Source of the DNA: Cytophagaceae bacterium ABcell3
GTDB lineage: Bacteria; Bacteroidota; Bacteroidia; Cytophagales; Cytophagaceae
Assembly (NCBI GenBank): GCA_030913385.1
Contig: CP133159.1
Location: 496,001-560,000 of the forward strand
Reading direction: 5' to 3'
DNA: 64,000 nt
Below are positions 34,014 to 51,798 of the stretch, one piece after another. Both the position numbers and the translations under genes were made by a program. How positions within the stretch are numbered: position 1 is the first letter of the stretch; every line of letters starts with the position of its first letter. The notes under the pieces were generated by a model. The model worked only from the letters and a program-made list of their open reading frames with translations. It was not told the DNA's origin and did not search any database.

Positions 34014-34901
34014 TTATTTTGCTATTAAAAAATTTAATGCCAGTTCAATGGTGTTTGCTGGAATATTTACTGATTGGGCTTGAGAAACCATATATGAAAA
34101 GGTAAGGTTAAAGTTTCCTGAAAATAAATCTATATCTTCTAAACCTACTAAGAATACATAACCTTGATGAAGTCTGTACATAGTGCCAGCAGATAACTTG
34201 TCCTGCATTATAAATACAAGGCCGGAATTTATGGAATAGTAGTTTTGACTCGCTAAAGTAATAGCTGCCATTGGCATAATTTTTAATTGATGGTTGAGCG
34301 TAAAGGTGTAATCACCAGTGAAGAGATAGTGGCGGAAGAGTGTAGTTTCCTCATCAATGGGTCTTAGGGTAGCATTGGGAAAGTCATTAATAGAAGCGCC
34401 AAAGTGAAAATTGTCACCGTAAAGCCATAAACCAGTATTTCCGGTAAAAGAAATATCACTGCCACTAACGCCTGCGGTAGAGCTTCTATAATTATAACTT
34501 ACAAAACCTAAAGATGTGCCTGCGGATATAAACGTATTTTCTGATAGTTCTAAATGAAAAGCGTAATTCAAATAGCTGCGAGACCTTCTAAAGTATTCTC
34601 CTTCTTTATCTCCAAAAAGGGTAAGACCTAAAACATGCTTTTGGCCGTTCTCAGATACATTTACGTTGGCATTCGCGCTGGTGTAATAAGTATTGACTTG
34701 AGAAAAGACCCCCGTTAGCGTTCTGTAACCAGAATGAATGCCTAGATTGGTGTTTGCTCCAATACTAGCTGGGTTTATTAAAGGATAATTTTTATAAAAT
34801 AAATTGAACTTGTCTGCATAATCTGAAAAATGCTGCGCATGTCCATAATGGTTTATGAGCCATAACTTTAAAAACAGTAAGAATAGGGTGTTTTTTAGCA
34901 T
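34014..34901 (-). CDS. PorP/SprF-family outer-membrane protein (copy 1)
   Basis: The 295-residue protein has a signal peptide (ending NHYGHAQ, about residue 22) and then FSDYADKFNLFYKNYPLINPASIGA, the N-terminal hallmark of PorP/SprF proteins. Beta-barrel strands continue to the C-terminal ALNFLIAK. PorP/SprF proteins sit in the outer membrane, and type B T9SS substrates are known to attach to such partners, often encoded next door. Here the gene is divergent (115 bp) from an ECF sigma factor operon that encodes a type B substrate, which suggests a joint system. It converges on the SDR gene. Confidence 0.85.
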   Translation of the reverse strand: MLKNTLFLLFLKLWLINHYGHAQHFSDYADKFNLFYKNYPLINPASIGANTNLGIHSGYRTLTGVFSQVNTYYTSANANVNVSENGQKHVLGLTLFGDKEGEYFRRSRSYLNYAFHLELSENTFISAGTSLGFVSYNYRSSTAGVSGSDISFTGNTGLWLYGDNFHFGASINDFPNATLRPIDEETTLFRHYLFTGDYTFTLNHQLKIMPMAAITLASQNYYSINSGLVFIMQDKLSAGTMYRLHQGYVFLVGLEDIDLFSGNFNLTFSYMVSQAQSVNIPANTIELALNFLIAK

Positions 34902-35016
34902 TTATCGACCTCAGTATCTGTAAAATTTAAAATTTTACATAAATAATGCAATTCATTTTGAAAAGAAATAATAAATTATTGTTTACAACAAAGCTTTCTG
35001 AATGTATTGAAGGAAA

Positions 35017-35601
35017 GTGCTAGAGGAAATGCAAAACACTGATGGAAAAGAAATAATTGACGCTATTAAGTCGGGCAATAATCAGTTTGTATTGGCTAGG
35101 TTATATAAAACTGTTCTTCCCAATGTACTTAATTATATAATCAAAAACAGTGGGGACGAGGAGGAGGCTAAGGATATTTTTCAGGACGCTGTTTTGGTGT
35201 TTTATAATCAAGTAAAAATGGGAAAGTTCAATGAGAAATATGAAATAGGTGGATTTATCTTTACTGTTGCCAAGAATCTTTGGATTAATCGGGCAAAAAG
35301 AAAGAGTCGGATGTCGAGGATGTTAGCTGATACAGATGTGTTTGATGACAATAATGTTTTAAAAGATCTGATAACCAAAGAAAAATCTTCGGCCATTTCT
35401 GAAATGCTGGGAAAAATTGATAAAGATTGTAGAAAACTTCTGAGGTATTCCACTTATGAAAAATTGAGCATGAAAGAGATTTGTGCAAAGATGGGTTTTT
35501 CAAGTGAAAATGTTGCCAAAACCTATAATTATAGGTGCAAGCAGAAGCTGGTAAAGCTGGTAAAGAATAACCAAAGTGTAATGGAATTATTTAGATCATG
35601 A
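35017..35601 (+). CDS. ECF-type RNA polymerase sigma factor
   Basis: The 194-residue protein has sigma region 2 at about 20-90 (DEEEAKDIFQDAVLVFYNQV, then GGFIFTVAKNLWINRAKR) and region 4 at about 125-185 (LLRYSTYEKLSMKEICAKMG with a helix-turn-helix SSENVAKTYNYRCKQKL). It lacks other domains, so it is an extracytoplasmic-function sigma factor. The GTG at 35017 is the assigned start; ATG at 35029 is an alternative. Its TGA overlaps the ATG of the next gene (ATGA), showing translational coupling to its likely anti-sigma partner. It may activate this locus and possibly other surface genes. Confidence 0.9.
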   Translation: MLEEMQNTDGKEIIDAIKSGNNQFVLARLYKTVLPNVLNYIIKNSGDEEEAKDIFQDAVLVFYNQVKMGKFNEKYEIGGFIFTVAKNLWINRAKRKSRMSRMLADTDVFDDNNVLKDLITKEKSSAISEMLGKIDKDCRKLLRYSTYEKLSMKEICAKMGFSSENVAKTYNYRCKQKLVKLVKNNQSVMELFRS

Positions 35602-36779
35602 ACCCTAGGTATCAACATACTGAAGATATAGACAATTACTTAAATGGAAGAATGTCCGAAGAGGAAAAGAAAACTTTTGAACAAAGGCTTGATTCCGACC
35701 CGGATTTCTCCTTAGAAGTTGAGGCGCAGCGTATTGCCAATCAAATGATTATTGGCAGTGAATTAATGGAACTTAAAGAGCAAATGCGTAAAGATTTACG
35801 TAATAAGCCTTCTGGCTTCAAGTATACCAGATTTTTTCTTCCTCTTCTCATTACCTTATTGGGTTTGGGGGCTTATGTATATTTAGGTAGCGGTGAAACA
35901 ATCACAGATAGTAGTGGGGGTGCCCCTATAAAAACAATGCAATACCACGATCTGAAAACTATATTGGAAGATCTTGAGACTAGAGGGAGTATAAATTCAG
36001 TAAATGGACCTGTAGAAGAAAGTCCGCATCTTTTAGTAGAGGTTAAAAAGCATACGGTGGATAGTATAACATCTATCAGTAAATCTAAAAATCAACCTGT
36101 TGATACTATAGCAAAAGCCACCATTGAAGAAGTGACGAATATAGCTGAACCCTCAAACAATTCTGATATCGATACCACGGGACATCAAAAAATGGAGGAT
36201 ACTTTAAGTACTGAAGGCTCGCCAAAAGAATCAGTAAGCCAAGAAGAGGTAGATCTTTGTGCGTCTATAGACATTTCTGGCAGGGTGGAGGTTAAGGAAA
36301 CTTGTAGTGGAGAAAATTCTGGAGAAATTGAAATTGTATCAACAAGTTTGACCGGTGGCAAATCGCCTTACCACTTTAGTTTAAATGATACGTCTGCTTT
36401 CAAAGATTATGGGAATTTTGCTTATTTACATGCTGGTAACTATAGCATTTATGTAAAAGACGCAAATGGATGCGTTAGTCTTTTGGCAGAAGACATAGAG
36501 GTATCAGAGAAAGACTGCCGGAATAATTTAGATTTAACATTTGCTCCATCAAGGGAATACTCTATTAAGGTGCCAGTAAAAGACAATGCTTCTGCCACCT
36601 TTAAAGTGTTTTCTAAAACTGGCGCTTTGGTTTATCAATCTAGGGTAGGCAATGGAGGAGTTGATGAATGGGATGGCAATGACCTGAGCGGAAGAGCTGT
36701 TTCTTCAGGATATTATATTTTTATTTTAGAATATATGGACGGTAAAACAGAGCAAGGTTCTATTACCATAATGAGATAG
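35598..36779 (+). CDS. Membrane-spanning anti-sigma-like protein with SprB-like repeat and type B sorting-like domain
   Basis: The 393-residue protein has an N-terminal cytoplasmic region DNYLNGRMSEEEKKTFEQRL (about 12-31), the pattern of Bacteroidota anti-sigma factors. A single membrane helix is at about 78-97. A Ser/Thr-rich periplasmic linker runs to 220. An SprB-like repeat domain occupies about 221-307 (VKETCSGENSGEIEIVSTSL, GGKSPYHFSLND, NYSIYVKDANGC). The last 84 residues resemble a type B T9SS C-terminal domain (FKVFSKTGALVYQSR, DEWDGNDLSGRAVSSGYYIF), but FSPNGDG is replaced by FAPSREYS. There is no signal peptide, so it is probably a sensor/anti-sigma protein rather than a secreted substrate. 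This is inference. It overlaps the sigma gene by four bases. Confidence 0.7.
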   Translation: MNPRYQHTEDIDNYLNGRMSEEEKKTFEQRLDSDPDFSLEVEAQRIANQMIIGSELMELKEQMRKDLRNKPSGFKYTRFFLPLLITLLGLGAYVYLGSGETITDSSGGAPIKTMQYHDLKTILEDLETRGSINSVNGPVEESPHLLVEVKKHTVDSITSISKSKNQPVDTIAKATIEEVTNIAEPSNNSDIDTTGHQKMEDTLSTEGSPKESVSQEEVDLCASIDISGRVEVKETCSGENSGEIEIVSTSLTGGKSPYHFSLNDTSAFKDYGNFAYLHAGNYSIYVKDANGCVSLLAEDIEVSEKDCRNNLDLTFAPSREYSIKVPVKDNASATFKVFSKTGALVYQSRVGNGGVDEWDGNDLSGRAVSSGYYIFILEYMDGKTEQGSITIMR

Positions 36780-36781
36780 AA

Positions 36782-38653
36782 ATGGTAAATTATAAACTCA
36801 TAATGACAAGCTTTTTGCTGTTCTTTGGCATGAATGTTTTTGCTGAGGGTACCAAAGAAATGCGTCCTGAAAAGGAACACTATGGTGCGCCTATTTTAAT
36901 TAATCACCATCAGTACACAACGTTCGGTCAGTATGGAGCACCAGATGAACAGCAAATTAAGGTTAAGGTTGGCGCTACTGATGAAGTGGTATACTTTGGG
37001 TTTAATAACAGGCGGAAAGAAGGTGGCTTTTTGGAAATTCCGTACAGGTGGGTTTCGCCTTCTGGCATTGTGGTAGTGGAAGGTATTATGCAAGACGAAG
37101 GTCAGGGTTGTATAAACACTTGGGAAGAAGCTGTGGCCGGACCAAAGCGATTTTCGGAGCAAGGATATGATGCCCTGTATTTTGAGCCAGAAGAAACCGG
37201 AAATTATGTGTTGGAGTTTGACCTTTCTGATAAACCTGAAGAAGAAGCATACCTTTATTTATTTGATATATCTGTAGCCAATGCAGATGGACAAATCGTT
37301 CCAGGCAGGTTACATTGCAAAGAGTGGCAGTTGACGACAGAATCGCAAGAAAATGAATATTTTGGTAAAGTTTATCCTTATACTGAAAATGGAGTGGTTT
37401 ATGAAGTTGACCTTAACCGGATTCAGCCATTTACTTTTGCTTTTTTTGTAAACTCTAAAGGTACTACAGATTCTGGCGATTTCTTTGAAGACCGAAAGTC
37501 CCGAATGGGTAAGCATCTTTTGCCGGAATATGATGTATTTTTAAATCCTCCTGATGAAAAACTTTTTCCAACGCAACAATTTAACTTTAAGTATCAAAGT
37601 AAAATCAATAAGCAGTCTTGTCCTGGGAGCGATTTTTGTATTGAGTATGAATCAGACATTAGTGGCCATGTAGAAGGGTTTATTGATTTAAACCAGAATG
37701 GCGTATTTGACAGTGATACAGATTTTTATTTTTTCAAAGAAGTAAAAGGCGGAGGTGCGGGCTGTATAGAATGGGATGGGCTGGATTTGTCAGGAAGACC
37801 TCTGGCAGATCAAGAGTTTCAAGTGTTCTCTGATTTTCGTCATGGCCTGACTAACTTCCTATTGTATGACGTGGAGCATAATAAACATGGCATAAAAGTT
37901 CAAATGATACGTCCAGAAGGAGTAAAAAAGCCTCTTTTGTACTGGGATGATTCTTTGATAGAAGATGGGCAAACAGTAGACGGAGACCCTTTGGTCAATA
38001 CAGACGGGTGTAAGTCGAATGAACTAGGTTGTCATAGATGGGAGAATCGTGGTGGTTTAGAAGGGCCTAGGGTAAACCAAGAAACCATTAACACTTGGTG
38101 GTATGCAGGTACTTTTTATGATACTGTGACATTGGATTTTAGTGAAGCATATGCAGTAATTGACCAAAGCTGGGAAAAAAATGTAGCACCTTCGTATCAT
38201 ATTGAAGAACATGGCTGCAATGAAGCATCTTCAGTTATCATTCAACCGGACAATGAAGAGGTAAGATCCTTTCAGTTTACACTAAAAAGAAGAAATTCAA
38301 ATGATTTATTTACCTCCTCAGATAATATCGTAGATGTGAGTGAAGGTGTGTATGACTTGATTATTACAGATAACGCAAGTTGTGAAGTTAACCTGAGAAA
38401 CTACATATCAGTGCCCCGTCCATCAAATTGCGATCAAGCCTTTTCGCCTAATGGTGATGGTATTAGTGATACTTATTACATCAGCACTCCCGGAATAGCC
38501 AAAATTTACAATAAACAAGGTGTTTTGGTAAAGGAGCTACAAACCCCTACGGAATGGGATGGTACTGATAATATGGGCAGTATTGTGCGTTCGGGTTTGT
38601 ATGCCATTATCATCAATGGGAATACCGTTTCACATGTTTCGGTAATTAAATAA
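36782..38653 (+). CDS. T9SS type B sorting domain surface protein (module copy 1)
   Basis: The 623-residue protein has a signal peptide (about 1-21, ending NVFA). A conserved module of about 460 residues contains GAPDEQQIKVKVGATDEVVYFGFNN, EGFIDLNQNGVFD, VEHNKHGI and NRGGLEGPRVNQETINTWWY. An Ig/SprB-like segment follows (HGCNEASSVIIQPDNEE). The type B sorting domain begins at about 550 with AFSPNGDGISDTYY and ends VSHVSVIK. Type B proteins are exported by T9SS and held at the surface. The module recurs in the 55237 gene. Two bases separate it from the anti-sigma-like gene, so it is the third gene of that operon. Confidence 0.85.
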   Translation: MVNYKLIMTSFLLFFGMNVFAEGTKEMRPEKEHYGAPILINHHQYTTFGQYGAPDEQQIKVKVGATDEVVYFGFNNRRKEGGFLEIPYRWVSPSGIVVVEGIMQDEGQGCINTWEEAVAGPKRFSEQGYDALYFEPEETGNYVLEFDLSDKPEEEAYLYLFDISVANADGQIVPGRLHCKEWQLTTESQENEYFGKVYPYTENGVVYEVDLNRIQPFTFAFFVNSKGTTDSGDFFEDRKSRMGKHLLPEYDVFLNPPDEKLFPTQQFNFKYQSKINKQSCPGSDFCIEYESDISGHVEGFIDLNQNGVFDSDTDFYFFKEVKGGGAGCIEWDGLDLSGRPLADQEFQVFSDFRHGLTNFLLYDVEHNKHGIKVQMIRPEGVKKPLLYWDDSLIEDGQTVDGDPLVNTDGCKSNELGCHRWENRGGLEGPRVNQETINTWWYAGTFYDTVTLDFSEAYAVIDQSWEKNVAPSYHIEEHGCNEASSVIIQPDNEEVRSFQFTLKRRNSNDLFTSSDNIVDVSEGVYDLIITDNASCEVNLRNYISVPRPSNCDQAFSPNGDGISDTYYISTPGIAKIYNKQGVLVKELQTPTEWDGTDNMGSIVRSGLYAIIINGNTVSHVSVIK

Positions 38654-46173: not shown

Positions 46174-46437
46174 AGTTCCTGAAGGATAGAATATATAGAA
46201 CGGATTTTTAAGGGTTATCTGTAAATTAACCTATGCAATTTAATTAATATGTAGTAGCATATAAGGTACTGGTTCAGATAACACATTTTTTAATTATCTA
46301 AAAGATCTATAAAAACGGTTTCATACAATTCACATGTGCTGAAAATTTTTTGCGCATAAGTGTTTACTTATCTGTTTTTGAATTGTATGTACCTTATAAC
46401 ATACTCTGTGAATCAACTACTTTAACAAATTTTTTTT
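46174..46437. other. Intergenic region with right direct-repeat copy
   Basis: The 264-bp gap separates divergent genes. It contains the right copy of the direct repeat (46258-46416) and presumably the promoter of the large secreted protein gene. Confidence 0.6.
46258..46416 (+). repeat. Diverged direct repeat, right copy
   Basis: It aligns with 44808-44935 over most of its length, including ATAAGTGTTTACTTATCTGT and TATAAC...CTCTGTGAA. It lies in the leader of the 46438 gene. Confidence 0.65.
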
Positions 46438-49400
46438 ATGAAAAAAATCTACGCCTTATTTTTTGCTTTCTTGTTAATAATTTCCAGCAAGGCTTTTCTT
46501 TTTGCCCAAGCGGAAGTAACCCGTGCAGGCAGTACGTGGACAGCAACTGTTAATGGGTCTAGTGTCTATACAGGTTCGGATATGATTGCAGCCATTCAAT
46601 CTGCAGCGAATAATCTTACCTCAGGGCGGACTAGCAAAGAAACAATTAATGTTCGGAACTCCGGTTCTACCGGTAGTACTAATTCTTTAAAAACATTTGA
46701 CATCCCTTCTTTTACCATTCTAGATTTTCATGGTAATACTATGGATGTCAATGATACGGGAGATGACTTGATAGTTCCTGTGCGAGGCATTCGCTCAGAC
46801 AATATTGAGATACGTAATATGACTATTACCGGTAATCCGAGATATGGGATTTGGTTGCACGGGTGTGCTAATGTTGTTTTATCTCAAATTCATATATCTA
46901 TACCTGAGGCACGCAACATAGGTTTAGGTATACGAATTGAAGGTAGAAATGATACCAGGTCGCAAAATGTGGAAATTGATTATGTATTTGCCGAACACTG
47001 TGCCCATCATGCAGTGGAAATATGGGATACCGATAATGTTACGATTGGAACCATAGAAACACGGAATACTGGCGGTTGTGGACTTTTGCTTAATAGGTCG
47101 ACAAATGCAACTGTTGAACTGATAGACGCCTATCGGGCCAATCACGGTGGCGGTTATGCCGCTTTTAGAACGGCCAATAATGCAGGGCCGGATATCCATG
47201 TGAAAAAAGTAATAGCCAGAGAATGTGGCCGTGGTATATTTGGTGTTTCTCAAAGTCGTGGGGTTACTATAGACTGGGTGGATATTGAGAACTCTAATTC
47301 TGCTGGTATTTTTATTGAAGATAGTTGGGATTATACCATCAACGGTGGCATTATTAGCGGTTCTAGGGGAGAAGGGGTAAGAATTGCCTCAAGAACCAAC
47401 GAACATCAACCCGCTCAGAATGTAACCATTCGAAATTTGTGCATTTCAGGAGATCATTCTTATGGAATCCGTGAAACTTCTTCAGGGAGTGGCTTTGGAA
47501 ATACTAACAACAACCGGTTTATTGATAATGATCTTAGAGGTAGTGCCTCTAATCCTGCTAATGAAATTTCCATCCAAGGCTCCCAAAGTATTGCGGAAGG
47601 CAATTGTGTAACAGGTGGCCCTGTTTATGAAGACTGTGGTTGTGAAGGTGGTGAAGGCGGAGAGCCCGATTGTAATGATATACCAGGTGGTACTGCCGTA
47701 TTAGACGACTGTGAAGAGTGTGTTGGAGGAAATACCGGCAAGCAACCATGTACAATGGCTTTCGAAGAAGGATATTATCAGATAAGGCCTTATCACTCTG
47801 ACCTGTGCCTTCACCCTGGTGACATAGTAACTCAAGAAGCCTGTTCTGAAACCAGTAATGAGGTTTGGCAAATCACCCAAAGTGGGTCTGGCTATCACAT
47901 TTCTTCTGTTACAGAAGACCTTTTCCTCAGTTATGGCGACGGTAGTCAAGAGAATACACTTACGCTTTCGGAAACCCCTTCAACTTTTAGGATAGAAACA
48001 TTAGGTGATGGAACTTATCATTTGGCGGTAGAAAATAATACAGATTTAGTCATTGATATGCATGGCAATTCTGTAGAACCCGGTCGTCAGGGTTTGCTAT
48101 GGGTTAGAAATGGACAGGATAATCAGAGGTTTACTTTTGCTGAAATGGAACCTTCATTTGATTGCAATGGAGATTTAGAAGGAGCTGCCACAGAAGATGA
48201 TTGTGGAGATTGTGTCGGAGGGAATACCGGTAAAACCGCATGCGCTGGCTTTGTTGATGGCCCCGATGCTTGTGTATATGAAGGGGCGGTTGAAGCCGAA
48301 CATGATGGGTTTATGGGCAATGGTTATCTTAATGGTGATAATGCACTTGGAAATACCATTTTGTATGTTATAAATAGTGAAAATGCCCAATCGGCAACAT
48401 TATCTTTTCGTTATGCCAATGGTAGTAGTCTAAACCGGGCTATGGAAGTAAAAGTTAATGGCGAAACTCAAGTGGAAGCGCTGGGCTTCAATTTTACCGG
48501 AGCCTGGAGTGACTGGGAAATAGCATCTGTTTCCCTTGACCTTTCTCAGGGTAACAATAGAATTGAACTTGTATCCTTGACCGAAGAGGGAGGGCCTAAT
48601 TTTGATCTTATAGGCTTTGATAGTCCAAATATTATTTTAGGCAGTTGTGAGGAAGATTGCCATGGAGATATTGCTGGTACGGCCTTCGAAGATGAGTGTG
48701 GAATTTGCGCAGGCGGGAATACCGGCATAGAACCTGGGGCGTCGTGCGAAGATCCAAGCATTAGTGATTTTGTTGTACCTGAAGGGGAAATTTTTACGGG
48801 CGATCCTTTTATTTTAAGTGTAAATTCCAGTGGCCCTGGTGAACTCACTTTCCAGTGGTATTTCAATGGGGATCCCATAGCGGATGCCACCGGTAGCAGC
48901 TATACAGTTGACAGTTCAATATCTTCGGTCCACAGCGGAGCATACCATGTAGTGGTAAGCAACGAATATGGCGAAACGTCAAGTGAGGTAATTGAAATAG
49001 ATGTCCAACCTATACTAGATTGTAACGGTGACCCTGACGGTACCGCTTTTGAGGATGAGTGTGGCGTATGCGCAGGCGGCAATACCGGTATAGAACCAGG
49101 CTCATCGTGCGAAGAACCGACCATCAGTGAGCTGGTTTTGCCTGAAGGGGGTATTTTTACTGGCGATCCGTTTGGTTTAAGTGTAAATTCCACAGGCCCT
49201 GGAGAACTTACTTTCCAGTGGTATTTCAATGGGGATCCCATAGCGGATGCCACCGGTAGCAGCTATACAGTTGACAGTTCAATATCTTCGGTCCACAGCG
49301 GAGCATACCATGTAGTGGTAAGCAACGAATATGGCGAAACGTCAAGTGAGGTAATTGAAATAGATGTCCAACCTATACTAGATTGTAACGGAGATCCTGA

Positions 49401-50808
49401 CGGCGCCGCTTTCGAAGATGAATGTGGCATTTGCGCAGGCGGGAATACCGGCATAGAACCAGGCTCATCGTGCGAAGAACCAAGCATTAGTGAGCTGGTT
49501 GTTCCTGAAGGGGAAATTTTTACCGGCGATCCTTTTATTTTAAGTGTAAATTCCAGTGGCCCTGGTGAACTTACTTTCCAGTGGTATTTCAATGGGGATC
49601 CCATAGCGGATGCCACCGGTAGCAGCTATACAGTTGACAGTTCAATATCTTCGGTCCACAGCGGAGCATACCATGTAGTGGTAAGCAACGAATATGGCGA
49701 AACGTCAAGTGACATAATAGATGTAAATGTCCAACCGAAACCTGACTGCAATGGTGATCCTGATGGTAGCGCCTTTGAAGACGCATGTGGAATTTGCGCA
49801 GGCGGGAATACCGGCATAGAACCTGGATCCAATTGCGAACCCCCAGTGATTATATCTGTAGAGTATCCAGAAGAAGGCCTCTATACAGGAGATGCATTGG
49901 CAATGACAGTAAACTATGAAGGTCCTGGAACCATATCTTACCAATGGTACCATAATGGATCGCCTATATCTGGGGCAACCTCGCGTACCTACGAAGTAGA
50001 TAGTTTATATTCCGGGCAGCACAGCGGATCTTACCATGTAGTGGTGAGCAACGAGTTTGGAGAAACGGCAAGTGATGTAATAGAAATTGTTGTTAATGCA
50101 GTAACTGATTGTAACGGTGATCCAGATGGTACAGCTTATGAAGATGCTTGTGGAGAGTGCGTGGGTGGCAATACAGGTGAAGTTCCTTGTGAGGAAGACT
50201 GTAACGGGGCATATGGTGGCACAGCTTCTATAGATTCATGTGGTGTCTGTGCCGGTGGGAACACCGGAGTGGCCTTTGGCTTTTCTTGTGCACTTCCTGA
50301 AATTTCAGATATGGCCGATGCATATGAAGTAAACGTAGGAGATGAATTGGTATTGGAGGTTGATGTTTCCGGACCGGGAAACAATACCTATCAGTGGTAT
50401 TTTAATGGAGAACCAATTGAGGGGGCTACTGAAAGTTCATTTGCTATTTCTGATGCATCATCCGATGATGCGGGTGTTTACTACGTGGTGGTTAATAATG
50501 ATAATGGAGAAACCAGGAGTGATGATATACATGTGTCAGTAGCTGATATTACGGGACTGTCCCGCTTAAACAGCCAAACTGAACTAAAGGTATACCCTAA
50601 CCCTGCCCATGACAGGATACATGTTGCATATAAAGTGGCTGGTAACCGGGATATAAGAATTTTTAATGGACTAGGTACCCAAGTTTATTTTGAGTCTACA
50701 TTTGAGCAAACAAAATTGCTTGATATTTCTTCTCTTCCTGCTGGAATATATTTCTTAAGGCTGGAAGTAGGAGAGGAGACAAAACAACATCCTTTTATTG
50801 TTGAATAA
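46438..50808 (+). CDS. Large T9SS type A secreted protein: beta-helix, ricin-type lectin, CBM6-like, Ig-like repeats
   Basis: The 1456-residue protein has a signal peptide (1-24, ending FLFAQ). A right-handed beta-helix (about 60-400) has repeated turns such as NIEIRNMTITGNPRYGIWLH. A ricin-type lectin fold is at about 445-570 (YYQIRPYHSDLCLHPGD). A CBM6/35-like domain is at about 610-735 (GAVEAEHDGFMGNGYLNGDN). Five Ig-like domains of about 80 residues (LTFQWYFNGDPIADATGSSY) lie between about 776 and 1370. Cys-rich linkers DCNGDPDG..ED.CG.CAGGNTG separate them. A type A sorting domain ends it (KVYPNPAHDRIHV). Domains 1-3 of the Ig set are nearly identical. It is probably an extracellular polysaccharide-binding or -degrading protein; no lyase residues were verified. 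Confidence 0.85.
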   Translation: MKKIYALFFAFLLIISSKAFLFAQAEVTRAGSTWTATVNGSSVYTGSDMIAAIQSAANNLTSGRTSKETINVRNSGSTGSTNSLKTFDIPSFTILDFHGNTMDVNDTGDDLIVPVRGIRSDNIEIRNMTITGNPRYGIWLHGCANVVLSQIHISIPEARNIGLGIRIEGRNDTRSQNVEIDYVFAEHCAHHAVEIWDTDNVTIGTIETRNTGGCGLLLNRSTNATVELIDAYRANHGGGYAAFRTANNAGPDIHVKKVIARECGRGIFGVSQSRGVTIDWVDIENSNSAGIFIEDSWDYTINGGIISGSRGEGVRIASRTNEHQPAQNVTIRNLCISGDHSYGIRETSSGSGFGNTNNNRFIDNDLRGSASNPANEISIQGSQSIAEGNCVTGGPVYEDCGCEGGEGGEPDCNDIPGGTAVLDDCEECVGGNTGKQPCTMAFEEGYYQIRPYHSDLCLHPGDIVTQEACSETSNEVWQITQSGSGYHISSVTEDLFLSYGDGSQENTLTLSETPSTFRIETLGDGTYHLAVENNTDLVIDMHGNSVEPGRQGLLWVRNGQDNQRFTFAEMEPSFDCNGDLEGAATEDDCGDCVGGNTGKTACAGFVDGPDACVYEGAVEAEHDGFMGNGYLNGDNALGNTILYVINSENAQSATLSFRYANGSSLNRAMEVKVNGETQVEALGFNFTGAWSDWEIASVSLDLSQGNNRIELVSLTEEGGPNFDLIGFDSPNIILGSCEEDCHGDIAGTAFEDECGICAGGNTGIEPGASCEDPSISDFVVPEGEIFTGDPFILSVNSSGPGELTFQWYFNGDPIADATGSSYTVDSSISSVHSGAYHVVVSNEYGETSSEVIEIDVQPILDCNGDPDGTAFEDECGVCAGGNTGIEPGSSCEEPTISELVLPEGGIFTGDPFGLSVNSTGPGELTFQWYFNGDPIADATGSSYTVDSSISSVHSGAYHVVVSNEYGETSSEVIEIDVQPILDCNGDPDGAAFEDECGICAGGNTGIEPGSSCEEPSISELVVPEGEIFTGDPFILSVNSSGPGELTFQWYFNGDPIADATGSSYTVDSSISSVHSGAYHVVVSNEYGETSSDIIDVNVQPKPDCNGDPDGSAFEDACGICAGGNTGIEPGSNCEPPVIISVEYPEEGLYTGDALAMTVNYEGPGTISYQWYHNGSPISGATSRTYEVDSLYSGQHSGSYHVVVSNEFGETASDVIEIVVNAVTDCNGDPDGTAYEDACGECVGGNTGEVPCEEDCNGAYGGTASIDSCGVCAGGNTGVAFGFSCALPEISDMADAYEVNVGDELVLEVDVSGPGNNTYQWYFNGEPIEGATESSFAISDASSDDAGVYYVVVNNDNGETRSDDIHVSVADITGLSRLNSQTELKVYPNPAHDRIHVAYKVAGNRDIRIFNGLGTQVYFESTFEQTKLLDISSLPAGIYFLRLEVGEETKQHPFIVE
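48846..49735 (+). repeat. 363-bp tandem coding repeats (Ig-like domains)
   Basis: Corresponding bases recur every 363 bp (CCAGTGGTATTTCAATGGGG at 48852, 49215 and 49578). Copies 1 and 2 are identical by eye from 48846 to 49028 (about 182 bases). The period is 121 codons, one Ig-like domain plus one Cys linker. Confidence 0.88.
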
Positions 50809-51503: not shown

Positions 51504-51798
51504 GCGCTATACCTGTAGGTGGTTGATAATATTACCGAAAAGTTGAAATATCTCGAAAGGTTAACATTCTTTTTTAGGACCAAGATTCTGTTTATAAACA
51601 TTTTCTTTTTTCATTTATGTGAATTCTTCAAGTGCTAGTGCTTTTTTAAGCCTCTTTTTGCGTAAACCATGAAGTAAACTTTAGTTCTAATTGTTCAGCG
51701 ATAATGGCTTTTTGAGGGGTAAACTCTAAAAATACTTATCTGCATTGTTTACTTTTTTATCGTCAAGTTGTAAAGGAGATACAATAACAAATATTTTT

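Follow-up and report, generated by a model that had tools for sequence, protein, structure and literature searches.

A T9SS-linked module of an ECF sigma factor, an anti-sigma-like protein with a type B-like C-terminal domain, a PorP/SprF carrier and a type B substrate in Cytophagaceae bacterium ABcell3 and related bacteria

The window analyzed here is a stretch of 64,000 nucleotides from Cytophagaceae bacterium ABcell3 (contig CP133159.1 of assembly GCA_030913385.1, positions 496,001 to 560,000 of the forward strand). At 34014-38653 it contains a compact locus comprising: a carrier of the PorP/SprF family, an extracytoplasmic function (ECF) sigma factor, an anti-sigma-like protein with a single transmembrane helix, and an exported protein with the type B C-terminal domain (CTD) of the substrates of the type IX secretion system (T9SS). 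The anti-sigma-like protein itself ends in a relative of the type B CTD, and this sigma/anti-sigma/carrier/substrate module recurs in related bacteria. The direct support comes from gene composition, gene order and linkage, CTD homology, a promoter element and a separate branch of PorP proteins. Through its carrier, the anti-sigma probably reads events at the cell surface.

In the window, the sigma gene diverges from the PorP/SprF gene and overlaps the gene of the one-pass protein by 4 bp, and a gap of 2 bp separates the latter from the gene of the type B protein (Table 1). Region 4 of the sigma factor is matched with an E-value of 2e-4, under the cut-off of that model, and the carrier has no Pfam domain besides PorP/SprF. 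The preliminary description of this DNA regarded the four genes as a tight unit; all of them are confirmed at the coordinates of Table 1, and the arrangement is not due to chance, since the same layout is found again in relatives. A paralogous full copy of identical layout (L039) lies 43 kb away in the same genome, with the four gene pairs 27-35% identical and the substrates alignable mainly in their tails. The single contig of this genome holds 26 PorP/SprF matches.

Table 1. Coordinates of the features of the module and of related elements (window positions, unless a locus of another contig stretch is named).
Feature	Positions	Strand	Evidence or remarks
PorP/SprF-family outer-membrane carrier, 295 aa	34014-34901	-	PF11751 E 1e-35 (124 bits); TIGR03519 108 bits, exceeds cut-off
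Promoter-like element GTTTAC-N16-TGTA	34981-35006	+	family motif; 10 bp 5' of sigma start codon
ECF sigma factor, 194 aa, GTG start	35017-35601	+	TIGR02937 69.1 bits (cut-off 42.9); Sigma70_r2
Anti-sigma-like one-pass protein, 393 aa, SprB-like domain and type B-like CTD	35598-36779	+	
Cytoplasmic anti-sigma-like N-terminal region, ~residues 1-70	35598-35807	+	family consensus; weak NCBIfam matches in relatives
Single transmembrane helix, ~residues 79-97	35832-35888	+	hydropathy
Unconserved periplasmic tether of one-pass protein	35889-36257	+	
SprB-like domain, four conserved cysteines (residues 221, 236, 292, 307)	36258-36521	+	PF13573 E 8e-4
Type B-like CTD of anti-sigma, NGD loop lost	36522-36776	+	PF13585 exceeds cut-off
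Exported type B CTD protein (substrate), 623 aa	36782-38653	+	
Type B CTD of substrate with FSPNGDGISD	38429-38650	+	PF13585 E 5e-8
Second GTTTAC-N16-TGTA element	46362-46387	+	50 bp before signal-peptide T9SS protein, open reading frame 46438-50808
Third GTTTAC-N16-TGTA element	51747-51772	+	26 bp before signal-peptide pectate-lyase-like T9SS protein, open reading frame ending 55224
Type A CTD proteins in some modules	L126 15243-17486; L118 1329-3566; L078 8280-10859; L091 2342-3715		

A search of 59 relatives gave matches in 24, from which about 80 loci were taken and typed with profiles; the core set comprises 68 non-redundant CTD-bearing anti-sigmas from 19 genomes. The sigma gene lies directly upstream of the anti-sigma in all 68 modules, and a PorP gene adjoins the sigma gene in 65, in 62 of them divergently. 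Counting proteins longer than 300 residues at a distance of at most 60 bp, a substrate is found directly downstream of the anti-sigma in 54 of the 68. Up to eleven modules occur in one genome (G005). A wider survey at an E-value of 1e-14, which covered the phylum with 395 genomes and the class with 295, added one full-length relative outside the order; in this twentieth genome (G472), PorP, a CTD protein of 226 residues, sigma and the CTD-bearing anti-sigma lie on one strand in a rearranged order. The association of a type B-ended regulator with PorP/SprF, sigma and type B substrate, put forward in the preliminary description from a single locus together with the proposal to look for the fusion beside PorP/SprF and sigma in other genomes, thus extends to a conserved module. 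In several modules without a downstream substrate (L079, L092, L108), a CTD protein sits behind PorP instead. A scan of genome contigs with the single protein yielded one locus only (L040, Confluentibacter), a match of 27 residues.

The last 85 residues of the one-pass protein of the window pass the cut-off of the Pfam family CHU_C (28.4 versus 27 bits, profile positions 24-86 of 86), while the score with TIGR04131 stays below the cut-off of that model. Among 30 relatives, CHU_C matches 24 and TIGR04131 matches 14 (E-values up to 0.01). When the profile of the tails was compared with other profiles by hhalign, the strongest similarity was to canonical type B CTDs (E 4.5e-20 over 89 columns), followed by the CTDs of the module substrates (E 1.5e-14) and by type A CTDs (E 4.7e-8). 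Among PDB entries, the profile of the tail aligns with the C-terminal end of GhpA, the grappling-hook protein of Aureispira (E 2e-21). The CTD region also gives FlgD_ig matches, which reflect a common immunoglobulin (Ig)-like fold. By these profile comparisons the tail is a true relative of type B CTDs and not a generic domain, in agreement with the type B-like end that had been proposed for the regulator.

Its role as a sorting signal is another matter. In the alignment, the FSPNGDGxND of type B CTDs is replaced in the anti-sigma tails by a shorter FnPxxGExW; the NGD motif is absent in 67 of the 68 anti-sigmas and in the window protein, and present in 43 of 50 substrates (absent in seven). 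A study in F. johnsoniae found that secretion or recognition requires all five CTD motifs, that CTD-carrier pairs are specific, and that mutation of motif A abolished secretion of the SprB CTD (PMC12618676). We take motif A of that study to be the NGD loop; on this reading the tail is a relative of the domain that lacks a motif required of a working sorting signal. A lost NGD loop together with retained strand motifs is what would be expected of a copy that binds and is not exported.

The rest of the one-pass protein conforms to an anti-sigma layout: it neighbors a sigma gene in an operon, and hydropathy predicts a cytoplasmic N-terminus, one helix and a periplasmic C-terminus. The helix begins between residues 73 and 104 across the 68 relatives, and the tether that follows, measured from the helix to the first cysteine, has 85-132 residues in all of them (about 105 typically); it may be disordered, to judge from its lack of conservation. 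The N-terminal region has the family consensus Y..Id.Yl.g.L...E...Fe. No Pfam anti-sigma family matched the one-pass protein or the relatives scanned, and the NCBI anti-sigma model NF052375 is weakly matched by four of 30 relatives (best E 9.7e-5), so that the putative anti-sigma role of residues 1-70 is drawn from operon coupling, topology and these weak matches. Between tether and CTD lies a region weakly matched by the SprB family in the window protein and matched by it in 15 of 30 relatives; its cysteine columns are at least 90% conserved in the family. In genome G018 four anti-sigma genes are split into two frames (L088 7297-8407, L133 6454-7568, L136 6211-7339, L137 6127-6865) and look broken or misassembled; the adjoining sigma genes are intact.

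A promoter-like element, GTT(T)AC-N15-17-[TC]GT[AC], precedes the sigma gene in 42 of the 62 divergent intergenic regions, which are not 42 independent events, because the pattern was read from the same sequences and related loci were counted separately. On the other strand it occurs in two of the 62, and shuffled sequences gave a mean of 0.3 and a maximum of three.

The carriers and substrates of the modules also differ from their ordinary counterparts. In a tree, the module PorPs fall on one side of a branch with SH-aLRT support of 92, apart from ordinary PorP/SprF proteins. The C-terminal CxC is absent in all 65 module PorPs, and their attachment to the gliding track in the manner of SprF is consequently unsupported. 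Leucine-rich repeats (LRR) were detected in 21 of 22 substrates scanned, many with an Ig-like domain, N-terminal to the tail; the window substrate is the exception, with a passenger devoid of LRR and the tail kept. The CTD of an anti-sigma resembles that of its own substrate slightly more than those of others (22 clusters, p 0.006), with p between 0.002 and 0.04 in eight of the nine settings used for alignment and clustering and between 0.003 and 0.01 when the pairing was shuffled within genomes. The SprB region, used as a control, gave no such signal (p 0.67). This resemblance fits a shared binding partner, as predicted if both CTDs meet the same PorP; gene conversion could yield a resemblance of the same sign.

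On balance, we favor the view that the module is a cell-surface signaling system of the FecIRA or Dma kind rebuilt on a T9SS carrier, in which the anti-sigma docks on PorP through a CTD that mimics the substrate. The substrate, an LRR-Ig protein in most relatives, would be carried to the surface and retained there by its dedicated PorP/SprF, as published CTD-carrier pairs suggest. The N-terminal domain of the anti-sigma would hold the sigma factor in the cytoplasm; one helix would cross the inner membrane, a tether of about 105 residues would cross the periplasm, and the SprB-like domain with the type B-like CTD would dock on the same PorP as the substrate. Since this CTD keeps the strand motifs but not the NGD loop on which secretion depends, it should mimic the substrate and bind without export. 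If the PorP-substrate complex changed, through loading, unloading or the binding of a ligand, the contact would alter and release the sigma factor, which would then transcribe its own operon from the conserved promoter. The binding of sigma, the docking on PorP and the sensed state with its sign are the steps that we infer. The preliminary description suggested that occupancy by the substrate is reported; a ligand on the substrate, usually an LRR protein, or a failure of secretion fits as well.

Several points weigh against this view. The main doubt concerns whether the CTD site on PorP is reachable from the periplasm: the CTDs of substrates may occupy its outer face, and a protein of the inner membrane would have to cross the outer membrane to get there. 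No curated family recognizes the anti-sigma domain with a score above cut-off. A single-sequence AlphaFold model of the SprB-CTD part of the window protein was too poor to use (pLDDT 42), and Foldseek on that model, equally unusable, listed a mixture of Ig-like folds and, at rank 24, one T9SS CTD. The own-substrate resemblance is small, with p 0.15 in the ninth setting. Tree distances of the C-terminal region of the anti-sigma and of PorP correlate beyond what sigma and the anti-sigma N-terminus account for (partial Mantel correlation 0.47), which speaks for the favored view, but co-phylogeny alone says little about contact, because modules are inherited as units. Some loci combine the parts differently. 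The anti-sigmas of L110 (6255-6995), L123 (6314-7054) and L129 (6110-6844) stop after the SprB-like domain; at these loci, and at the broken L137, PorP shares one strand with sigma and a canonical type B substrate, and the PorPs of this variant are placed among canonical ones in the tree. At L150 (6016-8168; same genome as the window, ~980 kb), sigma, anti-sigma and PorP form an operon without a CTD. The L110 group and L150 thus keep PorP in the absence of the CTD, which implies that PorP is tied to ECF signaling in more than one form and that the CTD is not strictly required. Conversely, L208, L217, L086 and L091 bear a CTD with no PorP in the stretch covered. L208 (1674-3062) and L217 (6041-7519) are independent fusions, adjacent to sigma, that join an anti-sigma to a PKD-like part and to a type B CTD whose loop is NGD-like. 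The statement of the preliminary description that comparable genes lacking PorP/SprF neighbors would contradict its proposal therefore applies to these four only, a minority.

These exceptions also bear on the alternatives. Regulation may proceed with no contact between anti-sigma and PorP, the periplasmic SprB-like or Ig-like end sensing something else and PorP and substrate being targets of sigma or mere neighbors; we consider this unlikely, while giving it some weight. The commonness of the Ig-like fold, the four loci with a CTD and no PorP, and a promoter element that faces the sigma operon and not PorP, which therefore need not be co-regulated, all suit it. It is harder to reconcile with a CTD that is specifically of type B, with a dedicated PorP branch, with four genes that stay together through the rearrangement in G472, and with an own-substrate resemblance confined to the CTD and missing in the SprB part. 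In line with the favored view, 19 loci with sigma-linked anti-sigmas that are homologous in the N-terminal part but devoid of SprB or CTD matches have no PorP in the stretches covered, a few of them short; this contrast is suggestive and not controlled, because the two sets differ in taxonomy.

Rather improbable, in our estimation, is a secretion checkpoint, in which substrate that builds up unexported in the periplasm competes with the CTD of the anti-sigma for binding to PorP or to the translocon, so that sigma matches expression to export capacity and no extracellular ligand takes part. The homologous SprB-CTD ends of anti-sigma and substrate, the position of the substrate gene within the sigma operon behind a sigma-type promoter, and the precedent of a CTD protein feeding the PorXY-SigP pathway in Porphyromonas gingivalis (PMC7712824) speak for such a role, whereas the presence in one genome of up to eleven modules, with LRR passengers, suggests separate receptors rather than checks on a single machine. 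The chances are slimmer still that the CTD of the anti-sigma functions as a T9SS signal and that its tail crosses the outer membrane and is displayed on PorP, the protein spanning both membranes and sensing the outside directly. The tether is long enough to cross the periplasm, Dma anti-sigmas do extend through both membranes by means of a disordered tether and a C-terminal barrel (PMC13088901), and the NGD-like loop is kept in the L208 and L217 fusions. Nonetheless, we rank an exported anti-sigma low because motif A, whose mutation blocked secretion of the SprB CTD in F. johnsoniae (PMC12618676), is lost in nearly all of these tails, and an inner-membrane anchor would leave the protein threaded through the translocon.

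Carrier-mediated signaling of the kind favored here would have several relatives among known systems. FecIRA uses a TonB-dependent barrel. The module shares with FecA-FecR-FecI an outer-membrane protein, a one-pass anti-sigma with a periplasmic reader, an ECF sigma factor and an apparently autoregulated operon; it differs in having neither a TonB-dependent transducer nor an N-terminal signaling domain on the barrel, and in that its cargo is exported while that of Fec is imported. Like the module protein, Dma anti-sigmas have an ECF sigma partner, one helix and a long tether, which in the module would likewise reach the outer membrane, and their N-terminal anti-sigma domain has a putative counterpart in residues 1-70; they end, however, in a beta-barrel of their own, whereas the module protein ends in SprB-like domain and type B-like CTD, with a separate PorP/SprF protein as the barrel (PMC13088901). 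The pairs SprB-SprF and Fjoh_3952-Fjoh_3951 resemble the module in that PorP/SprF is the neighbor of a protein with a type B CTD; the module adds sigma and a CTD-bearing anti-sigma, its substrate CTDs lack part of the canonical end, and its PorPs stand on another branch and lack the CxC of the SprF C-tail (PMC12618676, PMC12635249). In PorA-PorXY-SigP of P. gingivalis, a CTD protein also influences an ECF sigma factor that controls T9SS genes, through a two-component system with no anti-sigma and no PorP-linked fusion (PMC7712824).

No description of the module was found in literature on sigma/anti-sigma systems with PorP/SprF, T9SS CTDs or LRR proteins, of which parts were accessible, and this is weak evidence of novelty. 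PorP/SprF carriers are known as export shuttles and anchors, and the papers searched attribute to them no part in sigma signaling. We tentatively see in the module a two-part trans-envelope sigma switch, with a non-exportable copy of a secretion signal as docking plug and a carrier that is read from inside and displays a receptor (often LRR) outside, in up to eleven sets per genome, each with its own pairing. If this were true, PorP/SprF carriers would also be the outer-membrane half of receptors, and Bacteroidota would sense surfaces or ligands via exported adhesin-like proteins, in parallel to TonB-dependent signaling. It would also help to explain the large paralogous sets of PorP, and what the surface proteins of the modules report would become testable with reporter strains.

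Further variation was observed around the core set. The anti-sigmas of L073, L094 and L143 have a CTD and no SprB match. The anti-sigma of L150, of 252 residues, ends in a basic tail, and its PorP lies on a very long branch. The three of the 68 modules with no adjoining PorP are L138, cut by a contig end; L078, with a piece of PorP about 4 kb away; and L091, with none. In L078 and L091 a type A CTD protein occupies the usual place of PorP. In some modules such a protein is found next to sigma or some 300 bp past the anti-sigma gene, replacing the usual type B substrate or PorP (Table 1).

A genome-wide regulon could not be defined from the motif alone, since the strict window pattern has 17 matches versus 14 for the reversed pattern. 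Only four of the 17 lie in the last 100 bp upstream of a start and not inside a long open frame: those of the window module, of two T9SS proteins 11 and 17 kb downstream, and of one small gene. Both T9SS proteins have beta-helix regions and type A tails; one matches lectin and CBM6 domains and the second is pectate-lyase-like. The position of the elements is suggestive of possible regulon members, as candidates only. The pectate-lyase-like protein heads a run with a type B protein and a PorP that extends to 59588.

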